A stretch of 64,000 nt of DNA from a virus (IMGVR_UViG_3300046703_000100:1-64000), one strand, 5' to 3'; shown: positions 11,618 to 63,109, counted from the stretch's first letter. Program-made: numbers and translations. Notes: generated from the sequence alone by a model not told the origin.

Positions 11618-12000
11618 TGGCAGAATTTAATGAAGTAAAGGACAGTGGAAAAAGAGAAGATTTTAATACCGGAAGTAAGAGAGATACTCGTCAAGGTAAA
11701 GGAAGATTTGATTTAATCAGTCCTATCGCAGAAGAAAGATTAGCCAAGCATTATGAAAATGGAGCAGTAAAATATGGAGATAGGAATTGGGAAAAAGGAC
11801 AACCATTAACTCGTTATTTAGATTCTGCTAAAAGACATATAAATAAATTAATACAAGGTTATAAAGACGAAGACCATGCAACTGCTGTAGTTTGGAATTT
11901 AATGGCTTATATTCATACAGAAGAAATGATAGAAAGAGGTTTGCTTCCGAAAGAGTTAAATGATATGCCAAATTACAAAAAAGACAAAAAAGAGGAATAA
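11617..12000 (+). CDS. dATP/dGTP pyrophosphohydrolase-like protein (DUF5664 family)
   Basis: 127 residues. RFDLISPIAEERLAKHYENG, then KYGDRNWEKG, RYLDSAKRHI and DEDHATAVVWNLMAYIHTEE form the all-alpha MazG-like core of the family known as dATP/dGTP diphosphohydrolase N-terminal domain (DUF5664). Conserved acidic residues in the last helix pair bind metal. In phages with 2-aminoadenine DNA such an enzyme (MazZ) removes dATP or feeds dGMP to PurZ. No PurZ-like gene is in this window, so a general pool-cleaning role is equally possible. Confidence 0.75.
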   Translation: MAEFNEVKDSGKREDFNTGSKRDTRQGKGRFDLISPIAEERLAKHYENGAVKYGDRNWEKGQPLTRYLDSAKRHINKLIQGYKDEDHATAVVWNLMAYIHTEEMIERGLLPKELNDMPNYKKDKKEE

Positions 12001-12192: not shown

Positions 12193-12460
12193 AAGAATAA
12201 ATTATTTAAAATCTCTACAAAAAACTTTAGAACTATTTACAGATGGTTCAAGAGTTTTAGATGAATCAATTGATAGATGTTCTGAAATAGGATTTCGTGC
12301 TAAATTAAATGAATATCTTTTACAATATGCCCAATTAAATTTTGATTTTAGTTCTTACATTATTTTTAAATTGAGCGAAGCATATTCAAAAGATAAAGAA
12401 GAACAAGAATTTAATGATTTAATTAAAGGATTAGAAGAGGATATAGATGGAAACAAATAA
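12185..12460 (+). CDS. helical hypothetical protein, 91 aa
   Basis: All-helical prediction by eye, no membrane span, one Cys. It overlaps the following exonuclease gene by 14 bases. No family recognised. Confidence 0.55.
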   Translation: MNKRINYLKSLQKTLELFTDGSRVLDESIDRCSEIGFRAKLNEYLLQYAQLNFDFSSYIIFKLSEAYSKDKEEQEFNDLIKGLEEDIDGNK

Positions 12461-17475: not shown

Positions 17476-18127
17476 AACAAAAAGAACATTAGAGAATACA
17501 AGATTTTCAATCGAAATTGAATGTGAATTTCCATCAGCCAAAGATAGTCAAAAATTAATTTCAAAACATAGAATTATTAGAGGTTGGGAATTAGATTATG
17601 ATGGGTCATTGGATAATGGAGCAGAGTATCGTCCGAAAAATCGGAATAAACTTTATTGGAACGAAGATTGTATAGACCAAATAAAGGAAATTATAGGACT
17701 TATTAAGGCACATAGAGGACATATTAAAGGCAGTACATGTGGGTTTCATATACATATAGATATGAGCAAGTTTACCAATAAAGAAATTTGTAATATTATA
17801 AAAGCATATATTAAACAACAAAATAAAATTTGTAAACAATTTGGCATGTTAAAATGTCGTTTAGACTATGCCCAAAAAATACCTACAAACACCATAAAAT
17901 ATTTAACAGAAAGAAATATTCAAAAAATTAAAGAAAATAATGATAATTGCCGAGATATATGTATTTATATGTCAGAAAGACATTTTGCTCTAAATCTTTT
18001 GGCTTTACAGCGACATGGAACACTCGAATGGAGATTATTTAACGGCTCAATACAAATTAATCGTATTAAAGGATATATTAAATTTGTTCTTAATTTCTGT
18101 TTAAATAACGCAAAAGGCGATAAATGA
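17459..18127 (+). CDS. amidoligase-like enzyme (ATP-grasp/glutamine-synthetase fold)
   Basis: 222 residues. RFSIEIECEF at the N-terminus, the acidic/aromatic pair WELDYDGSLDNGAEYRP, then GFHIHIDMS (about 95-103) and GTLEWRLFNGS match the putative amidoligase family, whose Glu and HxH residues bind metal and ATP. Family members are predicted to join amino groups to carboxylates in peptide-tag or cell-wall chemistry. Either of two consecutive ATGs could be used. It is followed by small transporter-like membrane genes, so a metabolite or peptide modification cassette is conceivable. Confidence 0.75.
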   Translation: MMPRLKTKRTLENTRFSIEIECEFPSAKDSQKLISKHRIIRGWELDYDGSLDNGAEYRPKNRNKLYWNEDCIDQIKEIIGLIKAHRGHIKGSTCGFHIHIDMSKFTNKEICNIIKAYIKQQNKICKQFGMLKCRLDYAQKIPTNTIKYLTERNIQKIKENNDNCRDICIYMSERHFALNLLALQRHGTLEWRLFNGSIQINRIKGYIKFVLNFCLNNAKGDK

Positions 18128-18498
18128 TAGACCCATTATGGACAACTAAACAAATATTTGGTGCATTACTTATCTTTACTTCTATCTTTGATGCAGTAAA
18201 ATATAGTGTACAAGCCTTAAAAATACATAGACTACATTCAGCGAAAGGAATGTCAAGAAGATTTACGAATTGGGCTATTTCAAATGATATTGTAAAACTA
18301 ATTTACGGAAGTATTATTATAGATATATATATTGTTTTATCAAGTATCTTAGCATTAATTTGTATGACTCATCTTTGGATAGAAACCTATCTTAATTATC
18401 CATATCGTTATCGTGGATTGGAACATTTTAAAAGACCTAATCCAATTTTATACTTAATAAACAGTGTTATGCCCAATTCTTTGAGAAAAAGGTTATAA
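18124..18498 (+). CDS. SemiSWEET/PQ-loop-like membrane protein, 124 aa
   Basis: Three hydrophobic spans (about 8-30, 47-66 and 67-87). Between the first two lies a Q...K..R motif followed by SAKGMSRRFTNW, which matches the PQ-loop of SemiSWEET sugar transporters and related lipid-A-type repeats. A polar C-terminal tail of about 30 residues is extra. SemiSWEETs dimerise to carry small sugars. Substrate is unknown; it is next to a PnuC-like and an MFS gene. Confidence 0.55.
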   Translation: MIDPLWTTKQIFGALLIFTSIFDAVKYSVQALKIHRLHSAKGMSRRFTNWAISNDIVKLIYGSIIIDIYIVLSSILALICMTHLWIETYLNYPYRYRGLEHFKRPNPILYLINSVMPNSLRKRL

Positions 18499-18499
18499 A

Positions 18500-18739
18500 A
18501 TGCCTAAATATATAATGTATTTATTAATAACATTGTGTTTAATAGGACAAATTTTAGTTACTAAGCATAAAAGAAGTGGATATATGCTCTGGATAATTAG
18601 CGATTTTGCATGGGCTGGTTTTAACTTTTCCCAATGGCAAGTTATTGGAGCAATAGAACAAGGAATTTTATGGTCTATTTATTTAATAATTTCTGTTTGG
18701 GGATTTGTAATTTTTAAGAAAGATAAAGATGAAAAATAG
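18500..18739 (+). CDS. PnuC-like small membrane protein, 79 aa
   Basis: Three hydrophobic helices in 79 residues. The KRSGYMLWIISDFAW and AIEQGILWSIYLIISVWGF segments look like the second half of PnuC vitamin transporters (nicotinamide riboside type), a fold related to SWEET. Being a half-length unit it would have to oligomerise or pair with the protein encoded at 18124. The identification rests on pattern only. Confidence 0.45.
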   Translation: MPKYIMYLLITLCLIGQILVTKHKRSGYMLWIISDFAWAGFNFSQWQVIGAIEQGILWSIYLIISVWGFVIFKKDKDEK

Positions 18740-19910
18740 AAATATATTCTATTTATATTTATTAATAGGAAGCGTGTTCGGACTTCAGGCATTAGAAGGA
18801 CTTCCAGGTTCAGCTATTTCATTTTATTTTAAAGAGACTTTACATTTAAATGCAAGTACAATGATGTATATTTCATCAATTATTTCATTAGTATGGTTCG
18901 TAAAATTTTTGTGGGGTTATCTTATTGACAATGTAGTATCAGTTAAATTTTGGATGATTTTATCTATATTAATAAGTTTAGGAACATCTCTTTATTTCGG
19001 GTTGAATCAAATTATTGTTCTTCCTTTATTAATAGGACTTATGTTAATTAATGGATGGGCAGAAGCCTTACGGTCAACAGGTGCAGGTGGATTAACTTGT
19101 AGCGAAGGTAAAAGATATGAAAATACAGGAAAATTACAAAGTATTAGAGAAGGTAGTCAGATTATTATCGGTATATTAACAGGAATTGCCGGAGGATGGA
19201 TTGCACAATACACTTCCTATCATTTTGGGTTCTTGTGTTTGATTCCATTTTATATAATTTTATTAATAATTGTTTGTCTTTATAAACCTGCTAAAAAAGA
19301 GACATTACGTATTAAAATGTCATTTATAGATACAATAAAATCTTATAAAGAAGTTTTTACGAACAAACAATTTTTATGGATATGTTTAATTGTTTTTCTT
19401 TATAATTTTAATCCGAGTTTCGGAACGCCATTGTGGTTCAAAATGCGAGATTCGTTTCATTTTTCGAAGATATTTTTTGGAGTTTTAGATTCTTTAACTG
19501 CAATAACAGCTTTAATAGGAGTAGTATTTTATTATAAATTCAGTAAAAAAATTAATATACAAAGATGGATTAAAAATTCGATTTTCATTGGAGCAATAAC
19601 AAGTATGTGTTATTTATATTTTACCAAATATACTGCAATTATATATCCTCTGATATTTAGTATTGTAGGAGCGTTTATTTCGCTTATATTATTAGATTTT
19701 ATGGCACAATCCTCTATTAAAGGCAAAGAAGCAGTTTCTTTTGCAGTATTGTGTAGTATAATAAATTTAAGCGGTACTTGTTCATTATTATCAGGAGCTT
19801 GGTTATTACCTAAGATTGGATTACAACCTTTAATAATTTTAGCATCAGTTACAAGTTTTTTATGCCTTCCTTTTATTGGACATCTAAAATTGGAGACAAA
19901 AAATGGATAA
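18729..19910 (+). CDS. major facilitator superfamily transporter (AmpG/BT1-like)
   Basis: 393 residues with about twelve hydrophobic helices. The N-terminal part (LEGLPGSAISFYFKE, then WFVKFLWGYLIDNV) follows the AmpG and folate-biopterin (BT1) MFS pattern with a degenerate GxLxD motif A. A polar loop near residue 190-205 separates two six-helix halves. Such carriers import muropeptides, folates or other small solutes. A complete MFS carrier is rare in phages. It overlaps the PnuC-like gene by eleven bases, pointing to a transport cassette. Confidence 0.85.
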   Translation: MKNRNIFYLYLLIGSVFGLQALEGLPGSAISFYFKETLHLNASTMMYISSIISLVWFVKFLWGYLIDNVVSVKFWMILSILISLGTSLYFGLNQIIVLPLLIGLMLINGWAEALRSTGAGGLTCSEGKRYENTGKLQSIREGSQIIIGILTGIAGGWIAQYTSYHFGFLCLIPFYIILLIIVCLYKPAKKETLRIKMSFIDTIKSYKEVFTNKQFLWICLIVFLYNFNPSFGTPLWFKMRDSFHFSKIFFGVLDSLTAITALIGVVFYYKFSKKINIQRWIKNSIFIGAITSMCYLYFTKYTAIIYPLIFSIVGAFISLILLDFMAQSSIKGKEAVSFAVLCSIINLSGTCSLLSGAWLLPKIGLQPLIILASVTSFLCLPFIGHLKLETKNG

Positions 19911-23770: not shown

Positions 23771-24299
23771 ATTCGTATGGTCGATAGACAAAATCGAGAA
23801 GCGGTTCGAAATTGCTCTTAAACGCAATGCAATCGTACTTGGACTTGATTGTGCGACAAAGACAGGATATTGTGTTGCTAAAACCGATGAAAAAAAATTG
23901 ATATTAGAACTTGGTTTTATAAATATTGACGTTTCCAAAATTGAAGACAAATATGCTAAAAATGAATTTAGATATAATGCCTTCTATGATGCGATTAATT
24001 CTCTAATTGTACCAAAATTTGAAGCGATTGTAATAGAAGATGTATTCTTTTCAAGAAATGTACTTAGTTTGATTTTGCTTGCCAGAATAGGAGCGATAGC
24101 ATACACGATTTGTAAAGTAAAAGGAATAAAAGAGATTATATGGAAGAGTGCAATTTCTGCCAGAAAACTTTTGAAACTTCCTTGTAACAAAAAGAAAGTT
24201 ATAGTGCAGAAGGAATTTAGTAAAAAACTCGGAATACTTTTAAAGAATGAAGATGAAATCGACGCAATTATATTAGCATTAGTGGGGTTATTACAATGA
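23763..24299 (+). CDS. RuvC-like Holliday junction resolvase
   Basis: 178 residues with an RNase H-like fold. LGLDCATKTGYCV (D29), AIVIEDVFF (E92) and EDEIDAIILA (D164, D167) are the four acidic positions of RuvC. The KKKVIVQKEFSKKLG segment corresponds to the basic helix before the last acids. RuvC resolves four-way junctions; phage versions also debranch DNA before packaging. It may work with the RuvB-like ATPase at 3305. Confidence 0.8.
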   Translation: MNKFVWSIDKIEKRFEIALKRNAIVLGLDCATKTGYCVAKTDEKKLILELGFINIDVSKIEDKYAKNEFRYNAFYDAINSLIVPKFEAIVIEDVFFSRNVLSLILLARIGAIAYTICKVKGIKEIIWKSAISARKLLKLPCNKKKVIVQKEFSKKLGILLKNEDEIDAIILALVGLLQ

Positions 24300-24967
24300 A
24301 AAAATGTAAAGATTGTAAAGAAATTTGCGATGATAGAGCTATTAGATGCCATTCTTGTGCTAATAAAATATTAGGACAGAATCAAACAGGAAAAAATCAT
24401 CCTATGTATATAAATGGTAAAAGTAGAACAAAAAAATATCAAAAAGAATACAACAAAAAATATAGAGAAGAACACAAAGAAACTATGAAAATAAAATCTA
24501 AAATATATAGAACAAAAAATAAGGATATTAAAAAAGAATACGACAAACAATATCGTTTAAAAAATAAAATTAAAAGACAAAAATTACAACGAAAATATAA
24601 ACAAGAACATAAAAAAGAAAGAAAAATTTATAGAGATAATAAATTTAAAACGGATGTAGGATTTAAAATAGAACATAATTTAAGAGGTAGAATACACAGT
24701 GCTTTAAAAGGTAAAAACAAAAGTAAATCAACTATGAAATTAATAGGTTGTAGTATTGAAAATTTAAAAATACATTTAGAAAATAAATTTACCAAAGGTA
24801 TGACATGGAAGAATTATGGTAAAGGTGGTTGGGAGATAGACCATATCAGACCTTGTTGTAGTTTTAATCTTATTAATATTAAAGAACAATTAAAATGCTT
24901 CAATTATATAAATCTTCAACCCCTGTGGGCAGAAGATAATAGAAGAAAACATACAAAGGAGATATAA
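24296..24967 (+). CDS. HNH homing-type endonuclease
   Basis: 223 residues. N-terminal ribbon CKDCKEICDDRAIRCHSC, a long Lys-rich linker, and the C-terminal HNH domain with GGWEIDHIRPCCSF and FNYINLQPLWAEDNRRK, a pattern seen in many free-standing phage HNH genes. ATGA overlap with the RuvC-like gene, just upstream of recA, the kind of site where homing genes settle. Not required for the phage cycle by inference. Confidence 0.87.
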   Translation: MKKCKDCKEICDDRAIRCHSCANKILGQNQTGKNHPMYINGKSRTKKYQKEYNKKYREEHKETMKIKSKIYRTKNKDIKKEYDKQYRLKNKIKRQKLQRKYKQEHKKERKIYRDNKFKTDVGFKIEHNLRGRIHSALKGKNKSKSTMKLIGCSIENLKIHLENKFTKGMTWKNYGKGGWEIDHIRPCCSFNLINIKEQLKCFNYINLQPLWAEDNRRKHTKEI

Positions 24968-28516: not shown

Positions 28517-28670
28517 AAAAGAAGAATGTTTTTTTTATATGAGAGGTAAATGTGCCAGAGATGAAGAGAATCCTATTGCTATAATACCTTGTACAAAGAA
28601 ATGTAAGTTTTTTCTTTCATGGGAACATATGTTGAATGGTTTATCAGAAAAGGATTATGATGCGAATTAA
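28500..28670 (+). CDS. Cys-containing protein, 56 aa
   Basis: Start at 28500, with AAGGA upstream; the longer ORF (28437) starts inside the coiled-coil gene. CFFYMRGKC and CTKKCKFF resemble a CCCH or paired-Cys metal site. It overlaps the polymerase start by about ten bases. Confidence 0.5.
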   Translation: MPRQNKKEECFFYMRGKCARDEENPIAIIPCTKKCKFFLSWEHMLNGLSEKDYDAN

Positions 28671-31600
28671 TAACTTATTTTCAGAACATAAAGACCTTTA
28701 CGTATTTTATCGTGATGATTTATGTAATTTAAAGATTACAAAATTCACTGGTTTTTTCCCATATTTCTATGAACCAGACCCTTCTGGAAATTTTGAATCT
28801 TTTAAAGGTGAAAAACTTCGTAAAATAATTATATCAAATCCTTCAGAAATTCGAAAACAAGCAAGTACAAAAGCTTTTGAATCAGATATATTATTTGTAA
28901 AAAGATTTATGATAGATAAAGTAGATGTTATCGAACCTGCTCCTATTAAATACTGTTTCATAGATATTGAAACTCTTTCTCCCGAAATGCCAAATGTACA
29001 AGAAGCCAAATATCCAATTTCTTGTATTTCGATTTATAATTCATTATCTAAAGAAATTAAAACTTTCTATCTACCAGATTATGAATCAGAATACATGATG
29101 TTGGTTGCCTTTACAACATATATGAAAAAAGAAAAGTTTGATATATGGTTTTCATGGAATGTAAAGTTCGACTATAATTATTTATACAATCGCACTCTGT
29201 CGATATTCGATTTAGAAGGAATAAAAAACGCAGACTTGGCAGAATGTATAAGTCCAATAGATAAAAGTAGATATGGAGACGGAGAAGTAAAATATCCGGC
29301 AGGTACTTCGGTTGTAGATTATCTTGAATGGTTTAAAATAATTACATTAAAAAGAGAGAAAATGTATACTCTCGATTATATTGCACAGAAATTTTTAAAA
29401 GTTCCTCCAAAGGAAAAAGTAGATTTTAGTAAATTATCACCAAAATTAAAACAACATAATATTGATGATATAAAACTACTCGTAGGATTGGAAGAACTAA
29501 TGCATTTAGTATCCTATTACGACGAAATTAGACGAATTACACAAGTTGAGTGGGAAGATTTTATATATAATAGTAGAAGTATTGATATGCTTATTTTAAA
29601 AGAAGCTAAACGAAGAAATATAGTATTGCCAAATAGACCTTCTGGAGAAGGAGATGAAGAGATTTTCGAGGGAGCCTTTAGAGAGATATACGAGACTGGT
29701 CGTCTGGAGAACGTTGGTAAGGCAGATTTAGGTTGTTATTCAGAAGATACTGATATTTTAACTATAGAAGGATTTAAAAAATATAACGAATTAAAAATAG
29801 GAGAATCGGTAGCATCTTTTAATACAAAAATCAATAAAATCGAGTTTCAACCTATCCTTCATTTAAATATACAAAATGTAAAAAACCTACCTATGATAAA
29901 TCTGAAAAACTCTTATTCAACAGACCAACTTTTAACTTTAAATCATAAAGTTTTATTTAAAACTTCTTCAAAAAATCATAAAACGATAGAAAATACGACA
30001 AATGATTGGGAAATTTGTTACGCAAAAGATTTTCGAATTTCTCATTCTTTATTACCATTAACCGCTGAAATGAAAGATAAAGAGAATTATCCAATTTCTG
30101 ATGATATAATAAAAATACATGCTTGGATTATAACAGAGGGTTATGCATCAGGTAAAAATAAAGATATTTATCATATTAGTCAGAGCGAATCAATTAATCC
30201 TTTATTTTGTAAAGAAATTGATGAATCTTTCAAAAACCTAAATTGGAATGTAACTCGTTATGCAAGAATACGAAAAAATAATAGAATAGAAGTAGAATGG
30301 AATTTGAAATGGCTTTGGTCTACTTATATCGAGTTAGAAGAAAATTACAAAGCGATTCCTTTATGGATGCTCCAAAAATTATCAAAAAGACAATTAACCG
30401 TTTTATACGATACTTTAATGAAAGGGGATGGAGATAAAAAACGATATTGTTATTATGCTATTGACAAACTTGCTAAAGAAAGATTTCAATATTTATGTGC
30501 ATTACTTGGAAAAGCTTCTTATCAAAATAATAGAAAAGAAGTTTATTGTAAACCTAATAAATTTACAAGTCTTGAATCTGCAAATTTTAAAACTCAACAT
30601 AAAATTATAAATTATTCAGGTGTAGTATGGTGTCCTACAATTGCAAATGGATTTGTTTTAGTAAGAAGAAAAGGAAAGATATTTATTTCAGGAAATTCAG
30701 CCTATCCTTATGCTATTATAGAATTTTGTCTTGACCCTGCAAATGTAGTACAAGATAGCGGAGAAAATATTATACAGGTAGGAGACAATTATTTTAAACA
30801 AGATTCTAAAGCACTTATACCAACTATTATTAAAAAATTACTTGTTTTAAAAGCCACAATTAAAAAAGAATTATCAGAATGTTCAGTAGACGACCCAAAC
30901 CACAAAAATATTAAATTAAAATACGATGCTATAAAATCATTATGTAATACCGCATATGGAGTTACCGCTTTGAAGTTTTTTAGATTGTTTGATGTGCGTG
31001 TTGCATCGGCTACAACCTTCGTTGTACGTTCTTTACTACATTATATTAAAGATAAATTAGATGGTTCTGGACATCCGGTAGTTTATATAGATACAGATGG
31101 TGTATTTTATAAGAACCCTTCGACAGAAATAAATACAAAATTAAACGAATGGATTCAACAATGGGTAAAAGAAACTTTTAAAAAAGAAAGTGTGCAAATT
31201 TCGTTTGATTTTGAAGGTGTATACGAAAGTATTCTTTTATTGGCAAAATGTAGATACGTAGGAAGATTAAGAAAAAATAATGGAGAACTTGAAATAGAAA
31301 CAAAAGGTATTGAAGCAAAAAGAAAAGATTCTACCAAATATATGAGCAATTTTCAAAAGATATTAATAGATAAGATTTTAGACAACGAACCTAAAGAAAA
31401 AATATATGATTGGATAAAAGAAGAAATTAAAAATTTCCCAAAACAAAATATTATAGATATATCATTTCCTTGTAAAATGGCAAAATCAAAAATAGAATAT
31501 AAGTCAGTTCCCATCTTCTCCAGAGCTTTAGATAATACTCCGGAATTTAAGACAAGGGTAGGAGATAATTTCTACTATATTTATATGGAAGGTCTGGATG

Positions 31601-32145
31601 AAACAAAAAAAGATAAGGTTCTTGCTTTTGATGAATATAGATATGAACATATAAACAGAGAAGAAGTCGATTGGCAGAGGATGTTGGAAAGAAACATAGT
31701 TGCAAAAATAGACGTAATCTTTACAGCTCTAAAATGGAACTTAACGGACATTTACGTAGCTCCGCCGACTTCAAAGATATGTGATAAATGCCTAAAAGAC
31801 AAGTCGTTTTGTCGATTCCCATTAACCGGAAATACCTGCAAGGCGTGTATTACTCTCATAGAGAAGGCAAATAAGCCAAAGAGGGTCAAAAAGACCATAG
31901 AATCCTCTATTAGCGACACCCTGCCGAGCGATAAGGCGGATAAGGTAGGTCAGGATACCCCCGATTTGACAGGAAATACCCCTATTTTAACACAAAGTAC
32001 TGATAATAAAGGGGTTAAGATGGACAAAATCGATGACAAAGACCTCGTTACAGGCACTCCGGTCAAGTCCTTAAAAAAGAGGGGTAGACCACGAAAAATC
32101 AAGAAACCAGAAGACCTTAATTATGGGAAAGTAAAAAATGCATAG
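28660..32145 (+). CDS. family B DNA polymerase interrupted by an intein
   Basis: 1161 residues from the ATG at 28660, which has AAAAGG six bases upstream (28636 and 28657 are alternatives). Exonuclease motifs: FIDIE (about 101-104), WNVKFDYNYL and NIDDIKLL. Polymerase motif A is DLG joined to SAYPYAII after removal of the intein (359-679). Motif B is SLCNTAYGV (about 759) and motif C YIDTDG (about 809-814), where Gly replaces the usual Ser. A C-terminal extension carries CDKC/CKAC zinc pairs and an AT-hook-like RGRPRK near 1141; its DNA is clearly richer in G+C. It is the replicative polymerase. Confidence 0.92.
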   Translation: MRINNLFSEHKDLYVFYRDDLCNLKITKFTGFFPYFYEPDPSGNFESFKGEKLRKIIISNPSEIRKQASTKAFESDILFVKRFMIDKVDVIEPAPIKYCFIDIETLSPEMPNVQEAKYPISCISIYNSLSKEIKTFYLPDYESEYMMLVAFTTYMKKEKFDIWFSWNVKFDYNYLYNRTLSIFDLEGIKNADLAECISPIDKSRYGDGEVKYPAGTSVVDYLEWFKIITLKREKMYTLDYIAQKFLKVPPKEKVDFSKLSPKLKQHNIDDIKLLVGLEELMHLVSYYDEIRRITQVEWEDFIYNSRSIDMLILKEAKRRNIVLPNRPSGEGDEEIFEGAFREIYETGRLENVGKADLGCYSEDTDILTIEGFKKYNELKIGESVASFNTKINKIEFQPILHLNIQNVKNLPMINLKNSYSTDQLLTLNHKVLFKTSSKNHKTIENTTNDWEICYAKDFRISHSLLPLTAEMKDKENYPISDDIIKIHAWIITEGYASGKNKDIYHISQSESINPLFCKEIDESFKNLNWNVTRYARIRKNNRIEVEWNLKWLWSTYIELEENYKAIPLWMLQKLSKRQLTVLYDTLMKGDGDKKRYCYYAIDKLAKERFQYLCALLGKASYQNNRKEVYCKPNKFTSLESANFKTQHKIINYSGVVWCPTIANGFVLVRRKGKIFISGNSAYPYAIIEFCLDPANVVQDSGENIIQVGDNYFKQDSKALIPTIIKKLLVLKATIKKELSECSVDDPNHKNIKLKYDAIKSLCNTAYGVTALKFFRLFDVRVASATTFVVRSLLHYIKDKLDGSGHPVVYIDTDGVFYKNPSTEINTKLNEWIQQWVKETFKKESVQISFDFEGVYESILLLAKCRYVGRLRKNNGELEIETKGIEAKRKDSTKYMSNFQKILIDKILDNEPKEKIYDWIKEEIKNFPKQNIIDISFPCKMAKSKIEYKSVPIFSRALDNTPEFKTRVGDNFYYIYMEGLDETKKDKVLAFDEYRYEHINREEVDWQRMLERNIVAKIDVIFTALKWNLTDIYVAPPTSKICDKCLKDKSFCRFPLTGNTCKACITLIEKANKPKRVKKTIESSISDTLPSDKADKVGQDTPDLTGNTPILTQSTDNKGVKMDKIDDKDLVTGTPVKSLKKRGRPRKIKKPEDLNYGKVKNA
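29734..30696 (+). mobile_element. intein with LAGLIDADG homing domain (in DNA polymerase B)
   Basis: Encodes 321 residues inserted in motif A, between DLG and SAYPYAI. It starts CYSEDTDILTIEGFKKYNEL (block A) and has LLTLNHKVLFK (block B, TxxH). The degenerate LAGLIDADG motifs are AWIITEGYAS and LYDTLMKGDGD. It ends VWCPTIANGFVLV and FISGN before Ser+1. Penultimate Gly replaces His, as in the other intein of this window. Confidence 0.93.
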
Positions 32146-40389: not shown

Positions 40390-40560
40390 ATGTTACATAA
40401 TCTTTTAATTGCTGTTTATAGTGGAACTCTTACTGGAATATTGATTGTCTTTCTTTTAATACCGATAGCGTTCTTATTAGGGCTTAATTGCCCTTTAACA
40501 TTATCGAATTTTAGAAAGATATGGTACATTATATTTGTAGGATATAAACATGACAAATAA
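40390..40560 (+). CDS. membrane peptide, 56 aa
   Basis: One long hydrophobic stretch at about 4-32 and an amphipathic aromatic C-terminal segment. It overlaps the glycosyltransferase gene by eleven bases. Possibly anchors or assists the glycan cassette; no proof. Confidence 0.45.
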   Translation: MLHNLLIAVYSGTLTGILIVFLLIPIAFLLGLNCPLTLSNFRKIWYIIFVGYKHDK

Positions 40561-42334
40561 TCTTGAATATTGCGAACATTGTAATAAAGAAACTTCATTT
40601 CAATATATCCAACATATTAAAGGATATACGATTAAAAAATGTTTAGATTGTTATACTATTACTAAAATAGAATCTAATTCAGAAGAGATTGATTCTAATA
40701 AAATTTTATTAAGTATAATAATTCCTTCTTATAAAAGACCTGAATTATTAAAATGGGGATTGTATTCTTTAAGTCAACAGATAACTACTTTTCCATTTGA
40801 AATAATAGTTTTAAATGACGGTATTAAGGACGAGACTGAAAATATATGTAACTCTTATCAAGATAAATTAAATATTCGATATATTTATATTGGACATCGT
40901 AATGAAAAAGAAGACCATTGGAGAATTCCAGGATATGCTATAAATATTGGAGTTAAACAATCATTAGGAGAAAATATAATTTTGTCATGTCCTGAAATTT
41001 TTATCATGGATAATTGTTTACAAGAAATTATAAATTTACTTTCTAAAAATAAAAAATTATTGATAAATACTAACGGATTTCATGAAAAAAGAGATAATTA
41101 TATTAATCAATTAAAAACAACTGGAAAAATAAATTTAGATTTATCTACTATGACATCTTTAGATACTGAATTACCTTTTTTTATAGCAATGAATAAAGAA
41201 GAATTTATTAATATTGGAGGATACGATGAAGATTTTATTGGTTATTGTTGGGATGATAATGATATAATAAGTAGATTAAAATTAAATAAATGCACTTTTC
41301 TAAAACTTAATAAAACAATTATTCATTTATGGCATGATAAATTAAATTATAACAATCCTAAAATTATGGACATGTGGCGTTATAATAAGAATTTATACGA
41401 TACTCGAAGAAATATGATTATAAGAAATGAAAGTAAAGAATGGGGAGTATTAAAAGTTCCTCCGCCAGAAGATATTTGGGTTTTAAAGAATATACCAAAA
41501 ATCGCTCATTTTTATTGGGGTCATCCTTATATTTCTTATTTAAATTATTTATCAATTTATACTTTTCAAAAATATAATCCAGATTGGGATATTAGACTTT
41601 ATTATCCTAAAAAAGCATTTTTAGAACAAACATGGAAAGACCCAAATCAAAAATTTACTTTTAAAGGTAAAGATTATTGTTCTGAACTCAAAAAACTTCC
41701 AATAAAATTTATAGAATTTGATATGAAAAGTATTGAAATAAGTAACGATATTGCAGAAGTATTTAAATCTGAATATTTAAAAAATTATCTATTAAGTACA
41801 ATAGGCGGTTTATGGTCAGATATGGATATTCTATATTTTAAACCAATGAATAAAATTAACGTTAATATAAAATATAATGAAGATATTACAAATGTAGTAT
41901 CAATTGATACTAAATATACTAATAAATGGTTTCATTCAATAGGCTTTTTATTATCCTCTCCTAATAACGAATATCATGATTTCTTTTTTAAAGAAGGAAA
42001 AAAACAATTTGACCCTACAAGTTATCAAAGTCTTGGAGCAGTATTATTTAATAAGATTTGTCCAAGTATAATATCTATTCATGCTAAATTTCCTAATACT
42101 AAAGCAGTTAATATGTCTTATGATACCGTTTATGCTTATGGTTATATTAATAGACGATGGGGTTTAATATATAATAGTAATAATACTGTATATTATACAA
42201 ATGAATCAATTGGTTGTCATTGGTATGGAGGATGGAAAGAAGCGGAAAAATATATAAACGAAGTAAATGATACTAATTATAAAAAATATAATAATGTATT
42301 ATGTAAAACAATTAGGATGGCATTAAATGACTAA
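40550..42334 (+). CDS. bifunctional glycosyltransferase, GT2 fused to GT32-like
   Basis: 594 residues. The N-terminal zinc ribbon (CEHCNK, CLDCYT) is followed by a GT-A domain of GT2 type at about 50-290 (SIIIPSYKRPELLKWGLYSL, EIIVLNDG, GYCWDDNDI). A second domain at about 320-590 resembles the GT32 capsular/mannosyltransferase type (PKIAHFYWGHPYIS, LLSTIGGLWSDMDILYFKP with the DxD). Each would transfer a sugar from a nucleotide-sugar. First gene of the glycan cassette; cytoplasmic by sequence. Confidence 0.83.
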   Translation: MTNNLEYCEHCNKETSFQYIQHIKGYTIKKCLDCYTITKIESNSEEIDSNKILLSIIIPSYKRPELLKWGLYSLSQQITTFPFEIIVLNDGIKDETENICNSYQDKLNIRYIYIGHRNEKEDHWRIPGYAINIGVKQSLGENIILSCPEIFIMDNCLQEIINLLSKNKKLLINTNGFHEKRDNYINQLKTTGKINLDLSTMTSLDTELPFFIAMNKEEFINIGGYDEDFIGYCWDDNDIISRLKLNKCTFLKLNKTIIHLWHDKLNYNNPKIMDMWRYNKNLYDTRRNMIIRNESKEWGVLKVPPPEDIWVLKNIPKIAHFYWGHPYISYLNYLSIYTFQKYNPDWDIRLYYPKKAFLEQTWKDPNQKFTFKGKDYCSELKKLPIKFIEFDMKSIEISNDIAEVFKSEYLKNYLLSTIGGLWSDMDILYFKPMNKINVNIKYNEDITNVVSIDTKYTNKWFHSIGFLLSSPNNEYHDFFFKEGKKQFDPTSYQSLGAVLFNKICPSIISIHAKFPNTKAVNMSYDTVYAYGYINRRWGLIYNSNNTVYYTNESIGCHWYGGWKEAEKYINEVNDTNYKKYNNVLCKTIRMALND

Positions 42335-43406
42335 AATAATGACAATTTGCGGAACTAGACCCGAAATAATACGTCTTTCTTGTATTATTCCTAAATTAGA
42401 CAAGATATGTGAACATATATTAGTCTATACCGGACAAAATTTTAATACTCGTTTAAAAGATATATTTTTTCAAGATTTAGGAATACGTACTCCTAATTAT
42501 GATTTAGGTGCTATGGGATGTTTTGGAGAACAAATAGGTGTAATGTTCACTAAACTTGAATGTATATTAAAGACTGAACATCCTGATAAAGTTCTCATTC
42601 TTGGTGATACAAACAGTGCATTATGTTGCATTGTCGCTGAGAGATTGGGTATTCCGGTTTATCATATGGAAGCAGGAAATAGATGCGGAGATAAAATTGC
42701 AGAAGAGATTAACAGAAAAATAGTAGATAATACCTGTACAATTAATCTACCGTATACTAAAAGAAGCAGAGATAATCTTATTAATGAAGGGTTCGATTTA
42801 AAACGAATATTTGTTACTGGTAATCCAATCAAAGAAGTAATAGAATTTTATCAAAATCAAATAATTGATAGTACAATATTAACAACTTTAAATTTAAAAC
42901 ATGAAAATTATATATTAGCAACGCTCCACCGTAGTGAAAACGTCGATGATTTAAAACGATTAACTGATATAATATCTGCTTATAATCAAATTTCAGTTAC
43001 AACTGGTAAAGAAATTATTGTATCTACACATCCTCGAACACAAAGTAAATTATCGCAATTAATGATAACTATTTATGATAAAGTAAGATTCTTACCTGCT
43101 TTTGGATTTTTTGATTTTATTAGATTAGAAAAAAGTGCTTCATGTTTATTGACAGATTCTGGTACTTGTCAGGAAGAAGCAGGACTACTTCATATTTCTT
43201 GTGTAGTTACTCGCAGAGCAACTGAAAGAACAGAATTAATAGAATGTGGAGCAAGTATATTAGGAGGTATTGAATTTTCATCTATTTTAGAATCTTATCA
43301 ATATGCTAGTAAAATAGACAGAAATTGGGAATTACCGAAAGAATATTTAGACCTTAATGTTTCTAATAAAGTAATTTCAATATTAATGGGAGAAATCAAT
43401 GTTTAA
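42327..43406 (+). CDS. UDP-HexNAc 2-epimerase (WecB/WbjD/WbvD-like)
   Basis: 359 residues. TICGTRPEIIRLS, VLILGDTNSALC, YHMEAGNRCGD with EEINRKIVD, LATLHRSENVDD, STHPRTQSKL and LLTDSGTCQEEA cover the whole 2-epimerase active site. The MEAGNRC...EEINR form is closer to WbjD/CapG/WbvD of L-sugar pathways than to WecB. It would invert C2 of a UDP-acetamido-6-deoxy-L-sugar. Overlaps the upstream gene by eight bases and is followed by the two other pathway enzymes. Confidence 0.85.
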   Translation: MTKIMTICGTRPEIIRLSCIIPKLDKICEHILVYTGQNFNTRLKDIFFQDLGIRTPNYDLGAMGCFGEQIGVMFTKLECILKTEHPDKVLILGDTNSALCCIVAERLGIPVYHMEAGNRCGDKIAEEINRKIVDNTCTINLPYTKRSRDNLINEGFDLKRIFVTGNPIKEVIEFYQNQIIDSTILTTLNLKHENYILATLHRSENVDDLKRLTDIISAYNQISVTTGKEIIVSTHPRTQSKLSQLMITIYDKVRFLPAFGFFDFIRLEKSASCLLTDSGTCQEEAGLLHISCVVTRRATERTELIECGASILGGIEFSSILESYQYASKIDRNWELPKEYLDLNVSNKVISILMGEINV

Positions 43407-44361
43407 AGACAAAATTATAACAATTTCGGGGGGTACAGGTTCTTGGGGAAATGAATTAACAACTCAGTTATTAACTTATAATCCGAAAGAAATACGAATA
43501 TATTCAAGAGGAGAATTTGCTCAAGTTACGATGCAGAGAAAGTTCAATAATCCTAAATTAAAATTTATTATCGGTGATGTAAGGGATTTCGGAGCTTTAA
43601 AAAAAGCAACAAAAAATGTAAATTATCTTTTTCATTTAGCAAGCTTAAAACATGTGCCGATTTGTGAATTACAACCTGATGAAGCTATTAAAACTAATAT
43701 TATCGGTATTCAAAATATAATCGAATGTGCAATAGAAAATAATATTCAAAAAGTAATAGATGTATCAACTGATAAAGCTTGTAATCCTTTCTGTTTTTAT
43801 GGTATGACAAAAGCTGTTGGAGAAAAACTTACACAAGAAGCTTCAAGACAAACGACTAATACTCAATTTTTAGTTATTAGAGGAGGCAATGCTCTTGGTT
43901 CAAGCGGAAGCGTTTTAGGATATTTTATTGACCAAATTAAACGGTATAATAAGATTACAATTACAGATATTGAAATGACCAGATATTTTATTACTTTACA
44001 AGAAGCAATCAAACTTCTTTTTGTTTCAATAGCAAGTGAATATTCTGGTAGTATCTTGGTTATGAAAATGCCAGCTTGTAAAATTATAGATTTAGCAAGG
44101 GTGTTAATTCAAGAATACGGAAATACATATACAAAGATAGAAATAATTGGAGTTCGTCCTGGAGAAAAACTTCATGAATCTCTTGTTTCTACTTATGAAT
44201 CAGTTAATTGTTATGAATATAATAAAGATTATTATCTTGTTTATCCTTATGGTAAACTTGATTTACCTAAAGTTGAATTTAAAGAATATTCTTCTAATGA
44301 CAAACTTATGAACACAGGTGAAATAATGAATATGTTAAAAAAAGGTGGATTTATAAAATGA
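43399..44361 (+). CDS. UDP-GlcNAc 4,6-dehydratase/5-epimerase (CapE/WbjB-like)
   Basis: 320 residues, short-chain dehydrogenase fold. GGTGSWG (10-16) binds the cofactor, STDKACNPFCFYGMTKAVGEK holds the active-site YxxxK with the DK pair of the FlaA1/CapE/PseB group, and GVRPGEKLHE is the C-terminal signature. The enzyme makes a UDP-2-acetamido-2,6-dideoxy-4-keto-hexose from UDP-GlcNAc. Between the 2-epimerase and the reductase, it fits the L-hexosamine route better than the pseudaminic route. Confidence 0.85.
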   Translation: MFKDKIITISGGTGSWGNELTTQLLTYNPKEIRIYSRGEFAQVTMQRKFNNPKLKFIIGDVRDFGALKKATKNVNYLFHLASLKHVPICELQPDEAIKTNIIGIQNIIECAIENNIQKVIDVSTDKACNPFCFYGMTKAVGEKLTQEASRQTTNTQFLVIRGGNALGSSGSVLGYFIDQIKRYNKITITDIEMTRYFITLQEAIKLLFVSIASEYSGSILVMKMPACKIIDLARVLIQEYGNTYTKIEIIGVRPGEKLHESLVSTYESVNCYEYNKDYYLVYPYGKLDLPKVEFKEYSSNDKLMNTGEIMNMLKKGGFIK

Positions 44362-45212
44362 AAAAAATTCTTATCTTAGGTTCAAATGGAATGGCAGGTC
44401 ATTGTATTTATAATTATTTAAAATCTTTAAATAAATACGATATTTACGCCACTCGCCAAAAAGATAGTGATGAATCTCAACATATTTATGCTTGTAATGT
44501 TAAATCACAATTATATTTCTTAGAACCTTTAATAAAACGTATTCAACCAGATATTATAATTAATTGTATTGGGATACTTGTTAAAGCCAGTGAAGATAAC
44601 TCTGAAACTGCTATTTTCATTAATGCGTATTTTCCTCATTGGCTTGAAAAAATAACTAAAAATACTCAAACAAAAATTATTCATTTGAGTACTGATTGTG
44701 TTTTTGATGGTAAAAAAGGTAATTATCTTGATACTGATATACCTGATGGGATAGGATTTTATGCTCGTAGTAAAGCATTGGGAGAGATTATCAATAAGAA
44801 GGATTTAACCCTTAGAATGAGCATTATAGGCAAAGAACTTAAAATTGATGGCACAGGGCTATTTGAGTGGTGTTTGAGGCAAGAAGGAGTCATTTCGGGC
44901 TATTCTAAGGCATATTTTAATGGGATTTCGACCTTAGAATTGGTAAAAGCGATAGATAAACTTATAGAGTCGAATATAATAGGTCTTTATCAATTAGCTC
45001 CTAATTATAAAATAAATAAATATCATTTGTTACAATTATTACAAAAAATTTGGAATAAACAAAATATAACTATTCATCCCGATTCAAGTTTAGACCAAGA
45101 CAAAACTTTAATAAATAGCGAACCCCCAATACCTAATTATATTATGCCTTCTTCTTATGAAATAATGCTTAAAGAATATAAGGAATATTTAGATGCAAAC
45201 GAATCTAACTGA
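44358..45212 (+). CDS. RmlD-like 4-ketosugar reductase (WbvR-like)
   Basis: 284 residues. LGSNGMAGHCIYNYL is the NAD(P)-binding start, HLSTDCVFDGKKGNYLD and YARSKALGE hold the catalytic Thr/Tyr-Lys set of RmlD-type reductases. There is no C-terminal cupin, as CapF/WbjC would have, so it resembles WbvR, which reduces the 4-keto sugar on the path to UDP-L-RhaNAc and, after 2-epimerisation, UDP-L-QuiNAc. ATGA overlap upstream. Confidence 0.82.
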   Translation: MKKILILGSNGMAGHCIYNYLKSLNKYDIYATRQKDSDESQHIYACNVKSQLYFLEPLIKRIQPDIIINCIGILVKASEDNSETAIFINAYFPHWLEKITKNTQTKIIHLSTDCVFDGKKGNYLDTDIPDGIGFYARSKALGEIINKKDLTLRMSIIGKELKIDGTGLFEWCLRQEGVISGYSKAYFNGISTLELVKAIDKLIESNIIGLYQLAPNYKINKYHLLQLLQKIWNKQNITIHPDSSLDQDKTLINSEPPIPNYIMPSSYEIMLKEYKEYLDANESN

Positions 45213-45747
45213 AATACAAAATTATCTTAAAGATAAACAAATTTGTCTATTAGGTAATGCTCGGTCTATTTTAAATAATCCTAAAGATATAGATAAATAT
45301 GAAATTATAATTAGAATGAATAGAGGAATACCTAAAGGTAAAGAAAAATATATAGGTAGTAGAACAGATGTTTTATGTACTTCTACTAAAAATACTCTTT
45401 ACGAAATTCATCAATTTAATCCAATGTTTATAATTTGGATGACAAAAGACCAAAATTTAAAAAATCCTATGATAGATTATTATATTCAAAATCCTCCTGA
45501 AGATTGGCAAGAATTAAAAGACAGTTATCCTGATAAATATTTACCTTCTACTGGATGTATTGTTATTAATTTTTTATTAAAACATGTTGAATTTAAATCT
45601 TTAACTCTTATGGGTTACGATTTTTTCTGTACAGGAACGTTTTACCACAATTTAAAAAATCAGTCGTGGCATCCTGCCGAATTTGAAGAATATTTTATTA
45701 AAGATATGATATTTCCTTATAAAAATGTGGAGTTAATAATCAAATGA
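45193..45747 (+). CDS. GT29/sialyltransferase-like glycosyltransferase, 184 aa
   Basis: CLLGNARSIL, YEIIIRMNRG, SRTDVLCTST and LPSTGCIVINFLL followed by LMGYDFF and FYHNLKNQSWH match the core motifs of bacterial and phage GT29-like proteins. Classical members transfer sialic acid from CMP-sialate; no CMP-sialate genes are seen, so the donor may differ. Starts 20 bases before the end of the reductase gene. Confidence 0.7.
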   Translation: MQTNLTEIQNYLKDKQICLLGNARSILNNPKDIDKYEIIIRMNRGIPKGKEKYIGSRTDVLCTSTKNTLYEIHQFNPMFIIWMTKDQNLKNPMIDYYIQNPPEDWQELKDSYPDKYLPSTGCIVINFLLKHVEFKSLTLMGYDFFCTGTFYHNLKNQSWHPAEFEEYFIKDMIFPYKNVELIIK

Positions 45748-46340
45748 TAATAGTTTCCTTCGCCACAAAAAATACGCCCTATGAAGGCGTGATAAAAGAA
45801 TTTTTGTTATCTTCTTTGGAACAACTGAAACTTTCTTACGATATTGCTTATCCAGAAGATAGAGGTTCTTGGCAATTAAATACTCAATGGAAACCTACTA
45901 TAATTAAAGAAATGCTTCTTAAACATAAAGAAGCTATTACTTATATAGATTCAGATGCTACTATAATGCTTTATCCTGAATTATTATATAAATTACAAAA
46001 GTATGATATTGGGGTACATTATTTTGATTGGTATTATTTCTGGAAAAATATAGAAGGAAATCCTAAACGAGAAATTTTAGGAGGAACTTTATATTTTAAT
46101 TATAACGATAAGACATTAGCATTTGTAGATGAATGGATAAAAGTAACTAAAGAAAAAAGTTATAATGACCAACAAAGTTTAAATGAGTTAGTTCCAAAAT
46201 GTAACCAACTGAAAATTTATTCGTTACCAATAGAATATTGTGCGATTTGTAAAAGTACAAAAGTTCCTGATTGGCTTATTAATCCAGTAATCGTACATCA
46301 TCAGTGTTCCAGAAAATACAAAGGATGGAGAAAGAAATGA
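45744..46340 (+). CDS. GT-A type glycosyltransferase with DxD, 198 aa
   Basis: ITYIDSDATIML carries the metal-binding DxD of nucleotide-sugar transferases, preceded by a Rossmann-like start (IIVSFATKNTPYEGVIKEF), and followed by LGGTLYFN and a YNDQQSLNEL segment typical of the nucleotide-diphospho-sugar transferase family. Acceptor and donor unknown. ATGA overlap with both neighbours. Confidence 0.75.
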   Translation: MIIVSFATKNTPYEGVIKEFLLSSLEQLKLSYDIAYPEDRGSWQLNTQWKPTIIKEMLLKHKEAITYIDSDATIMLYPELLYKLQKYDIGVHYFDWYYFWKNIEGNPKREILGGTLYFNYNDKTLAFVDEWIKVTKEKSYNDQQSLNELVPKCNQLKIYSLPIEYCAICKSTKVPDWLINPVIVHHQCSRKYKGWRKK

Positions 46341-47029
46341 ATAAACCTTCTCAAATCGTAATTGTAGGCGGAGGGTCAAGTATTTCTGAAGGCATTAACT
46401 TAGGACTTTGGGAAAAACTTAAAGAAAAATTTACTTTTGGTATTAATTATTCCTACAAATACTTTAATGCCACTGCACAATTATATTGCGACAATTCGTT
46501 CTATAATAATGAATCTCCTAAAATGACTAATATACCTCTTATTATAGGAACAACTTATCAGGTAAAACAAAGAATAAATAATTCTATTCATCTTACCGCT
46601 ACAAATAAATATTCTAGAGACCTTTCTAATGGAGTATATTCACCACGTTTAACAGGTATGTTCGCTTTAACATTAGCGATATATTTATTAAATGTTGGAG
46701 AAATATTTCTTTTAGGTTATGATAATGGCAATATTACCGAAGAAAAAGATGATAAAGGACGAGCGATAACACATTTCTACCAAAAAGAATTGATTCATGG
46801 AGGCAGTGGAAAAATTTATTACTATAACAGGAAATCCGCAGAAGAGACCGATTATGGAGTATATAAACAAGAAAAAAACGTTAAAATTTTTAACGTTTCT
46901 TTAAATAGTAAATTAAATATATTTCCTAAAATATCTTATGAAGAATTTTTTAAACAATTAAATAACGAAACTTATGACCAAAATCTTTTAAGACAAGAAA
47001 TTTTATCAAAATTAAAAGGTAAATATTAA
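46337..47029 (+). CDS. MptE-like/GT42-like protein of the glycan cassette, 230 aa
   Basis: Start at 46337 (ATGA overlap, AAGGATGGAG upstream); the ORF runs back to 46304 inside the previous gene. IVIVGGGSSISEGIN and FGINYSYKYF, then LTGMFALTLAIYLLNVGEIFLLGYD are typical of DUF115/MptE-like and GT42-related proteins that bind nucleotide-activated substrates. It probably transfers a sugar in the same pathway. The coding DNA holds a perfect 11-base inverted repeat at 46876-46898. Confidence 0.65.
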   Translation: MNKPSQIVIVGGGSSISEGINLGLWEKLKEKFTFGINYSYKYFNATAQLYCDNSFYNNESPKMTNIPLIIGTTYQVKQRINNSIHLTATNKYSRDLSNGVYSPRLTGMFALTLAIYLLNVGEIFLLGYDNGNITEEKDDKGRAITHFYQKELIHGGSGKIYYYNRKSAEETDYGVYKQEKNVKIFNVSLNSKLNIFPKISYEEFFKQLNNETYDQNLLRQEILSKLKGKY

Positions 47030-47536
47030 ATGAAAGATACTAATACCTCTAATACTTTTTGGGGTTCAATTATTGCAGGATTTTTAGGTGCATTAGGAGG
47101 TGCTGAAAATTCTAATAAAAACTTTCGAAGAATTGGATTACCTCTATTTCTTGCTGGTATCGCTTGGCAACAATTTCATAATTGGTATATTTTTAGTATC
47201 TTCTTAATGATTCCTATATTATGTATAGGATATGGGTTAAACTCTCTATTATATAGGGTATTTTATGCCTTATTTGGTCATAATGGCCTATTAGCCGATA
47301 TATTTACAAGAAGTACGTTAGGATGTCTTCTTTCTTGTACTTTAGCTCCTATAGCCCTTATAACACAAAATTACCTACTGTTTATAGTAGGTATGTTAAC
47401 GATTATTTTAGTTTTTGGGTCGTTAAGTTGGAGAGATTTAGGTAGTTTTAAATTTCAAGGAAAACAATTGATTTGGTCAGAATTCATCCCTTATGCTAGT
47501 ATAGGAATTGTTTCTCTAATTTTAATCTATTTTTAG
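47030..47536 (+). CDS. polytopic membrane protein, 168 aa
   Basis: Four to five hydrophobic helices from about residue 12 to the end, with small polar loops. It follows the last glycosyltransferase with no gap and is the last + strand gene before the convergent late genes. A role in moving or anchoring the glycan is possible but unproved. It is not recognised as flippase or GtrA. Confidence 0.6.
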   Translation: MKDTNTSNTFWGSIIAGFLGALGGAENSNKNFRRIGLPLFLAGIAWQQFHNWYIFSIFLMIPILCIGYGLNSLLYRVFYALFGHNGLLADIFTRSTLGCLLSCTLAPIALITQNYLLFIVGMLTIILVFGSLSWRDLGSFKFQGKQLIWSEFIPYASIGIVSLILIYF

Positions 47537-60629: not shown

Positions 60630-61358
60630 TTATATTAACTGATAAATTTTATTTATTATTTCTGTAAAATAAGCGAACCAAAAGTCTCTATTAAAATTGC
60701 TTTTGCAGTGACATTTATCGCATAAACTAACTAAATTTTCTTCTTTACAGTTTGTTTTATTATAATCTATATGATGTATACTTAATTTTCTATTATTGTC
60801 TTTAAGTTCTTGTTTTTGTATTTTGTCACAGTATTGACATTTGTAATTATCTCTGTTTCTAATCGAGTCCTTAAAATCGTTTGTAAATTCAAAAGTATAA
60901 GGTTCTAAAGAACTCCAATTATTAAAATTGGGATTGTTTTCCCCCATCATTAATTTACTGTGTTCTGGACGTTTTTTACCTTTATGACTTTCAGTTTTTG
61001 TTCGAATTGGAATATCTAATTTTAATAACCAAGCATATATATTTTCATTAGAACAATTATATTCTTTTGCTATTTGAACAATGGATTTATTTTCATCTAT
61101 ATAATCTTTAGATAATTGTTCTATAGTAATATGAAATTTATTTTTGCAACAACTACGGCATAACGCTGTGCCATATAACGCCGAAGACCAACTTATTTTA
61201 CTATTACATTGTATACAATAATAATTTTGTTTATCTCGTCTTTGTCCGATTTTTAATAATTGTTTATTAGCACATTTTCGACATCTTGTAGATTGATAAT
61301 GTATTAATTTATTACATTCAATACAATGATTTTTTAAATAATATTTTTTCTTCTTCAT
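60630..61358 (-). CDS. HNH homing-type endonuclease with zinc ribbons and HTH
   Basis: 242 residues. N-terminal ribbons (CIECNKLI, CRKC, CIQC, CRSCC), a helix-turn-helix near 80-115 (SIVQIAKEYNCSNENIYAWL), then the HNH core CQYCD, SIHHIDYNKTN and LVSLCDKCH. It sits between tail terminator and the coiled-coil gene and has a private promoter at 61365-61393. No ribosome site precedes its ATG. A free-standing selfish nuclease. Confidence 0.88.
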   Translation of the reverse strand: MKKKKYYLKNHCIECNKLIHYQSTRCRKCANKQLLKIGQRRDKQNYYCIQCNSKISWSSALYGTALCRSCCKNKFHITIEQLSKDYIDENKSIVQIAKEYNCSNENIYAWLLKLDIPIRTKTESHKGKKRPEHSKLMMGENNPNFNNWSSLEPYTFEFTNDFKDSIRNRDNYKCQYCDKIQKQELKDNNRKLSIHHIDYNKTNCKEENLVSLCDKCHCKSNFNRDFWFAYFTEIINKIYQLI

Positions 61359-62488: not shown

Positions 62489-63109
62489 TTACTTTCTTAT
62501 AGCAATTCCTAATTCTTTTAAATCTTTTTCCATTATTAATTGTATTTTTATCTCTGGATAAAATATTTTCGTTAAATCAAATTTAAATTTAGCATCATCT
62601 ATCCAGTAACCTTTTATTTCTATATATTCATTGGTTTCAGGTAAATAAAAATCAGGTGTATAAGTAGTATCGCCTAAGTCAAATGCTTTTGGTTCGTATA
62701 TCCATTTAATATCATTGTCGTCTAAAAATTGAGCGAAATTAACTTCCCATTGTGAATGAAAACAATTATCTTTATACCAAATTCGTTTACCATGAAAAAG
62801 AACTTTACCGAAATGAGGATGTTTTCTTCCTTGCATTTCTTTATGAAAACAATCTGCACATCTTCCTTTACCAGCGAAAACAGTTTGATGACTTGTTTCT
62901 TTACCGCATTTACAATAATAATGTTTATCTTGACAAGTTAATCCATGAATAAATTGATTATTATTACTGCCTCCATGTATTATTTTATTTTCTGGTCTTT
63001 TTTTACCAAACATAGAATTTAAAGAACCTTTATGAGAACAAGATTTACATCTTATCGATTTTGACCAAATTAATGTTCCACAATCAATACATTTATTATG
63101 TTTATGCAT
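62489..63109 (-). CDS. zinc-ribbon PD-(D/E)XK homing-type nuclease, 206 aa
   Basis: Two zinc ribbons in the first 95 residues (CIDCG, CKSC; CKCG, CADC) with NUMOD3-like GKKRPEN and GRKHPHFGK repeats. The C-terminal nuclease has SQWEVNFAQFLDDN (Glu), TYTPDFYLP (Asp) and YIEIKGYW (ExK), as in VSR/T7 endonuclease I-like enzymes. It splits two connector genes (stop and start overlap at 63109), an expected homing site. Confidence 0.85.
   Translation of the reverse strand: MHKHNKCIDCGTLIWSKSIRCKSCSHKGSLNSMFGKKRPENKIIHGGSNNNQFIHGLTCQDKHYYCKCGKETSHQTVFAGKGRCADCFHKEMQGRKHPHFGKVLFHGKRIWYKDNCFHSQWEVNFAQFLDDNDIKWIYEPKAFDLGDTTYTPDFYLPETNEYIEIKGYWIDDAKFKFDLTKIFYPEIKIQLIMEKDLKELGIAIRK

Follow-up and report, generated by a model that had tools for sequence, protein, structure and literature searches.

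Can a tailed phage encode a complete route to a rare deoxyamino sugar, and if so, to which one? The question is raised by positions 42327-45212 of IMGVR_UViG_3300046703_000100:1-64000, the 64,000-nucleotide stretch of viral DNA that we analyzed (here called the window). A preliminary description, made from the sequence alone, proposed that three overlapping genes code for the whole synthesis of a UDP-2-acetamido-2,6-dideoxy-L-hexose, either UDP-N-acetyl-L-quinovosamine (UDP-L-QuiNAc), by way of UDP-N-acetyl-L-rhamnosamine (UDP-L-RhaNAc), or UDP-N-acetyl-L-fucosamine (UDP-L-FucNAc). Strong family matches, intact open reading frames (ORFs), and catalytic residues bear out the complete three-enzyme set. 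Between the two branches, we prefer L-RhaNAc/L-QuiNAc, because the reductase is WbvR/QnlA-like and no WbjC/CapF protein is present. The trio is probably a self-contained route from UDP-N-acetylglucosamine (UDP-GlcNAc) through UDP-L-RhaNAc to UDP-L-QuiNAc, the sugar then being placed by transferases encoded next to it.

The phage and its cassette

The source record is an IMG/VR tailed-phage genome of 91,572 bp, whose 127-bp terminal direct repeat fits a complete assembly. It codes for several viral hallmarks (a tape-measure protein, a family B DNA polymerase, a clamp loader, and a primase), and its terminase-like protein of 604 amino acids (aa) had no match among named phages. As first described, the three cassette ORFs lie on the + strand, with overlaps of 4 to 8 nucleotides (nt) between neighbors. 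They follow the order 2-epimerase, dehydratase, reductase, purine-rich stretches precede their start codons, and their G+C content is close to that of the remainder of the genome.

The three enzymes

The dehydratase does not fit the CapE/WbjB-like label that it had been given, as its active site is YxxxK instead of MxxxK and it belongs to a separate clade. Position 134 is Tyr (STDKACNPFCFYGMTK), whereas CapE, 4j2o, and nearly all trio dehydratases of the bacterial loci examined have Met; in CapE and WbjB, Met134 takes the place of the Tyr that is catalytic in other short-chain dehydrogenase/reductase (SDR) enzymes (PMC3699295, PMC5774825). D125, K126, and Y134 align with D132, K133, and Y141, the catalytic residues of FlaA1 (PMC5774825), and thus make up the complete FlaA1/PseB catalytic set. 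In a tree of 68 rows, 48 of them MxxxK rows that include CapE and FnlA, the protein falls in a 12-member clade (nine viral and three bacterial; support of 100/100) outside both the MxxxK rows and the PseB rows, which form a group of their own (100/100 against the other named groups). NCBIfam scores are 293 bits for PseB (TIGR03589; cutoff, 408) and 253 bits for FnlA (TIGR04130; cutoff, 730), while the solved relatives 4j2o (Acinetobacter FnlA/WbjB), CapE, and FlaA1/PseB give 228 to 237 bits and Megavirus Mg534 gives 169. The structural model, with a mean predicted local distance difference test (pLDDT) value of 94, matches 6bwc, 2gn4, and 3vvc with template modeling (TM) scores of about 0.9. 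Two assignments can be ruled out: a CapE/WbjB/FnlA enzyme, by Tyr134, the tree position, and the 253 of 730 bits, and PseB, by the 293 of 408 bits and the separate clade, even though Asp, Lys, and Tyr are all there. The predicted first step stands, because both neighboring families (PseB/FlaA1 and CapE/WbjB/FnlA) dehydrate and invert C5.

The reductase has an RmlD-like fold and no cupin domain, a point of the preliminary description on which Pfam and the ORF layout agree, with no cupin downstream. Its model (pLDDT, 94) has a TM score of about 0.8 to RmlD structures, and its triad is Thr112, Tyr135, and Lys139. A true RmlD is ruled out by a score of 79.7 bits against TIGR01214 (cutoff, 224), by STDC instead of STDY, and by the tree, which separates the protein from true RmlD rows at 100/99 and places it with WbvR/QnlA-type reductases; the grouping with true dTDP-rhamnose enzymes, named beforehand as one outcome that would speak against the proposal, is not seen. 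The motif STDCVF puts Cys114 where RmlD has Tyr, and this Cys is invariant among the aligned family members (38/38, as STDC or a variant with the same Cys). In polysaccharide loci of bacteria, relatives of the gene adjoin those for a dehydratase and a 2-epimerase; examples are Escherichia coli O-antigen loci of the O181 type (37% identity to that copy) and the O123/O186 type, and such genes have been assigned to L-QuiNAc as QnlA/QnlB (PMC9723277). The RmlD fold, the missing cupin, STDC, and the gene context make this a reductase of the WbvR/QnlA type. Mg535, the Megavirus 3-epimerase/4-reductase, retains the Cys used for C3 epimerization by GDP-fucose synthase, which is taken to be its C3-epimerase residue, and in mimivirus L780 Cys108 and Lys175 serve C3 epimerization (PMC9614988). 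Judging from its place in the motif, Cys114 may be the counterpart of the Mg535 Cys.

The 2-epimerase was correctly described as being of the MEAGNRC type, with this motif at residues 114-120, and GDT93, EAG115, EE126, and HR201 are present as well. Active-site residues missing on alignment were the other outcome named beforehand as speaking against the proposal; in the cassette, the residues are in place. The nearest solved relative is CapG (7ya2, 314 bits), while the 2-epimerase 1f6d reaches only 93 bits; the protein is closer to CapG than to WecB and clades with the viral copies and that of bacterial locus L028 (98/88).

Recurrence in phages and bacteria

A reductase scan of viral contigs returned 23 loci, and in all 22 that are long enough to show it, a dehydratase lies directly or closely upstream, joined by an upstream 2-epimerase in half of them (11/22); near-identical records occur among these loci, and the counts are not independent events. 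The corresponding dehydratase scan gave one locus only, which adds trio L025. In a relative phage (G001), whose terminase-like protein is 51% identical, the cassette, the glycosyltransferases, and the adjoining - strand genes keep the same arrangement. The terminase of a second lineage (G002-G009) is of another kind (Terminase_6N), and one member codes for a UvsX/RecA-like protein that shares about 66% identity with large-myovirus versions; no phage tail sheath was found in the search of the relatives. Within this lineage, the ratio of nonsynonymous to synonymous substitution rates (dN/dS) of the cassette is 0.03 to 0.14, which indicates purifying selection, with several dS values near or above saturation. 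At least two phage lineages that are unrelated to each other thus have the pair or trio. The named phage collection contains no close trio; the best matches there, at 43-45%, are to Staphylococcus phage SA 1298/1306 Kay. These entries are contigs without annotation, as long as 283 kb, and their CapE/CapG-like genes resemble host capsule genes.

Among bacteria, the dehydratase clade was found in only 3 of 296 genomes from the phylum that includes G012 (575 to 598 bits; next best, 332). The polysaccharide locus L028 has the gene order of the phage and includes rml-like genes of its own. In L100 (9372-10994) and L101 (2008-3636), a WbvR-like reductase forms one fused protein with the SDR half of WbjC/CapF, without the cupin half, and both loci have a dehydratase of the same clade; because of these fusions, the RmlD-like domain may supply the C3-epimerase function that the cupin gives in CapF. 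Separately, bacterial dehydratases with STDKACKPVN.MG[IM][ST]K (L045, L046, L055, L060, and relatives) form a distinct MxxxK subgroup (100/100), often with the gene order reductase-dehydratase.

Predicted pathway and alternatives

In the predicted pathway, modeled on characterized relatives, the dehydratase would remove water across C4/C6 of UDP-GlcNAc and invert C5 to give UDP-4-keto-6-deoxy-N-acetyl-L-idosamine (UDP-4-keto-6-deoxy-L-IdoNAc). The RmlD-fold reductase would then invert C3, with Cys114 as acid/base, and reduce C4 to give UDP-L-RhaNAc, which the 2-epimerase would convert to UDP-L-QuiNAc. Last, the adjacent phage glycosyltransferases would attach the sugar to a host glycan or a virion protein. 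We infer the chemistry of each step, the C4 stereochemistry, and the final acceptor from those relatives. The C3 inversion is credited to different enzymes in different reports: to CapF/WbjC in the papers on CapE and Ab-WbjB (PMC3699295, PMC5774825), and to FnlA, described as a 3- and 5-epimerase, in a paper on Plesiomonas (PMC9723277).

Several observations weigh against this route. The C4 configuration (L-rhamno versus L-talo) cannot be read from sequence, and the open-licence literature yielded no assayed enzyme for the clade of the dehydratase. In the reductase, no equivalent of L780 Lys175 was identified, and the roughly corresponding stretch has an invariant Trp171. Bacterial reductases whose partner dehydratase is of the MxxxK kind have this Cys too, which makes it no proof that the reductase inverts C3 in the YxxxK clade. 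In favor of the route, 11 viral records combine dehydratase and reductase without a match to the 2-epimerase family; one is 188 kb, but most of the 11 are fragments, so the absence of the 2-epimerase is unproven. Because of these records, the pair can probably stand alone like Mg534 and Mg535, and pair-only phages would fit a two-enzyme route to UDP-L-RhaNAc such as that of Mg534/Mg535.

The pathway could instead end at UDP-L-FucNAc, as in the WbjB/C/D and CapE/F/G systems, if the reductase gave the L-talo product and the 2-epimerase turned it into L-FucNAc. CapG is after all the closest solved relative of the 2-epimerase, and two bacterial relatives combine an RmlD-like domain with a WbjC-like reductase half in a fusion. 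We consider this ending unlikely, as the window has no WbjC/CapF protein, no cupin domain lies beside the cassette, and the reductase family is that of WbvR/QnlA-type loci. Quite unlikely, too, is a PseB-like dehydratase that only dehydrates and inverts C5, followed by a reductase that only reduces C4, which would give another 6-deoxy-L-HexNAc (altro, ido, or C2 epimers). The active site does have the FlaA1/PseB residues, and PseB is the top NCBIfam score (293 versus 253 bits for FnlA), but both scores are under their cutoffs. PseB-type enzymes act together with an aminotransferase, and there is none among the neighboring genes examined; moreover, Cys114 and the CapG-type 2-epimerase match the L-rhamno/L-gluco route.

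Gene trios like this one are often found in surface-polysaccharide loci of bacteria, and one might ask whether the cassette is accidentally carried host DNA or a decaying recent acquisition, functionless in the phage. This is highly unlikely. The order is the same in the relative phage at only 52-57% protein identity, so the cassette has long been kept, and it also occurs in the unrelated lineage with the low dN/dS values given above and has a G+C content near that of the remaining genome. Beyond the preferred route to UDP-L-QuiNAc, we tentatively propose that the YGMTK-type enzymes may be a third lineage of inverting UDP-GlcNAc 4,6-dehydratases, mainly phage-spread and partnered by a bifunctional RmlD-fold 3-epimerase/4-reductase. 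The pair (UDP-L-RhaNAc) or trio (UDP-L-QuiNAc) might then be an exchangeable phage cassette that decorates virions or recoats the infected cell.

Neighboring transferases and fate of the sugar

The trio is part of a + strand run of eight genes (Table 1), which also contains four candidate transferases and a small membrane-like gene. Gene direction switches at the end of the run, where a short GT2-like gene on the - strand is followed by presumed tail genes. For the PHROG 4603 gene, an ATG at about 46337 with a GGAG-containing stretch upstream is a more likely start than the listed GTG.

Table 1. Genes of the run at 40550-47536 (window coordinates; percentages are comparisons with locus L002)
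Predicted product	Position	Strand	Evidence and remarks
Two-part glycosyltransferase, GT2 half and C-terminal half without Pfam match	40550..42334	+	Glycos_transf_2, E value of 2e-12 at 55-191; 8-nt overlap with the 2-epimerase gene; L002, 44%
2-Epimerase, CapG/WbjD/WbvD type	42327..43406	+	359 aa; Pfam Epimerase_2, E value of 4e-77; predicted UDP-L-RhaNAc to UDP-L-QuiNAc
Dehydratase	43399..44361	+	320 aa; Pfam Polysacc_synt_2, E value of 3e-90; also NCBIfam and PDB matches
Cupin-less RmlD-fold 4-reductase, WbvR/QnlA type	44358..45212	+	284 aa; RmlD_sub_bind, E value of 5e-20; predicted 3-epimerase/4-reductase
GT29-like (sialyltransferase-family) protein, putative role	45193..45747	+	184 aa; Pfam Glyco_transf_29, E value of 2.5e-7 over 39 residues
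Nucleotide-diphospho-sugar transferase-like protein	45744..46340	+	Pfam Nucleotid_trans, E value of 4e-5; kept in L002, 42%
PHROG 4603 alpha-2,3-sialyltransferase-like protein	46304..47029	+	PHROG, E value of 5e-9; kept in L002, 50%
Small membrane-like protein conserved beside the cassette	47030..47536	+	Parts kept in L002, 43-44%

Neither a Wzx-type flippase (PF01943) nor an initiating sugar-phosphate transferase (PF02397) was detected in the whole genome, which argues against a self-made lipid-linked glycan. As acceptor, a virion protein, a host glycan, and some other product of the phage are all candidates. The phage, otherwise rich in replication genes of its own, also encodes an integrase-family protein (tyrosine recombinase; window 5779-6651; Pfam E value of 4e-20); it is possibly temperate, in which case it could alter the host surface lastingly.

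Other genes of the phage

The genome also contains transporter genes, which are odd cargo for a phage: an MFS/BT1-family transporter (window 18729-19910; E value of 1e-22) is paired with a small multipass protein (18124-18498) that is PQ-loop/SWEET-like by eye and has no Pfam match. An M16 (insulinase-like) peptidase gene, with N and C domains both recognized, lies at window 7823-8998, and a dATP/dGTP diphosphohydrolase-type protein (window 11617-12000; PF18909; E value of 1e-21) may affect nucleotide pools or modified bases. An intein-like insert interrupts the family B DNA polymerase (window 28636-32145) near residues 326-690 and is similar to one in the portal proteins of Gordonia phages, and the 5'-3' exonuclease (window 12447-14336) has a LAGLIDADG insert. 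Small zinc-ribbon, HNH-like ORFs of one family, resembling homing endonucleases, are scattered over the phage genome (G000; 4407-5120, 24296-24967, 60630-61358, 62489-63109, 72093-72746, 77065-77670, and 79947-80720), and one is also inserted in the L002 cassette region.

Comparison with known systems

Rare-sugar synthesis by a virus is less unusual than the preliminary description held, as there are precedents in Megavirus (PMC9614988, PMC10117803) and in cyanophage P-SSM2 (PMC7824862), and the cassette occurs in many phage contigs. Mg534, Mg535, and Mg536 of Megavirus chilensis make UDP-L-RhaNAc and UDP-L-QuiNAc, and by their published description they share with the phage a set of three virus-encoded genes for a YxxxK dehydratase/5-epimerase, a stand-alone RmlD-like reductase with the conserved Cys, and a WbvD/WbjD-like 2-epimerase (PMC9614988, PMC10117803). 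However, Megavirus is a giant virus of amoebae and not a tailed phage, the gene order differs, and structure matches place Mg534 (33%) no nearer to the phage dehydratase than FlaA1 (40%) or CapE (42%); the Mg534 structure (4tqg) ranks below 2gn4, CapE, and WbjB, and the trees were built without Mg534-Mg536. Clusters of the P-SSM2 type contain NAD-dependent epimerase/dehydratase and glycosyltransferase genes, with a suggested change of the host surface, and their description names no complete UDP-2-acetamido-2,6-dideoxy-L-hexose trio (PMC7824862).

Among bacterial systems, WbvB/WbvR/WbvD of Vibrio cholerae O37 (by description only) and the enterobacterial FnlA/QnlA/QnlB share the three functions and the reductase family with the phage. 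In contrast, the dehydratases of the copies examined from E. coli and Vibrio are of the MGxSK kind, and the order in these systems is dehydratase-reductase-2-epimerase. The L-FucNAc systems CapE/CapF/CapG and WbjB/WbjC/WbjD have a dehydratase about 40% identical and of the same fold, together with a CapG-type 2-epimerase, but they differ in Met134 of CapE/WbjB (PMC3699295, PMC5774825) and in the two-part CapF/WbjC reductase, whose cupin has no counterpart in the phage cassette. PseB/FlaA1 share all of the catalytic Asp, Lys, and Tyr with the phage dehydratase, which is set apart by its score (293/408 bits), its separate clade, and neighbors among which no aminotransferase was seen.

Measured against the open-licence literature, the pathway is known from bacteria and giant viruses. 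What is new is that tailed phages have the cassette in complete form, that it recurs in lineages unrelated to each other, and that its dehydratase belongs to a clade of its own. If the proposed route is right, a complete rare amino-sugar pathway shown so far for bacteria and giant viruses extends to tailed phages, with a previously undescribed clade of dehydratases, and its sugars could be markers of phage virion or host-surface glycosylation. Which enzyme inverts C3, a point on which published assignments conflict, becomes directly testable with the pair and trio variants that occur naturally and with the cupin-less bacterial fusion.

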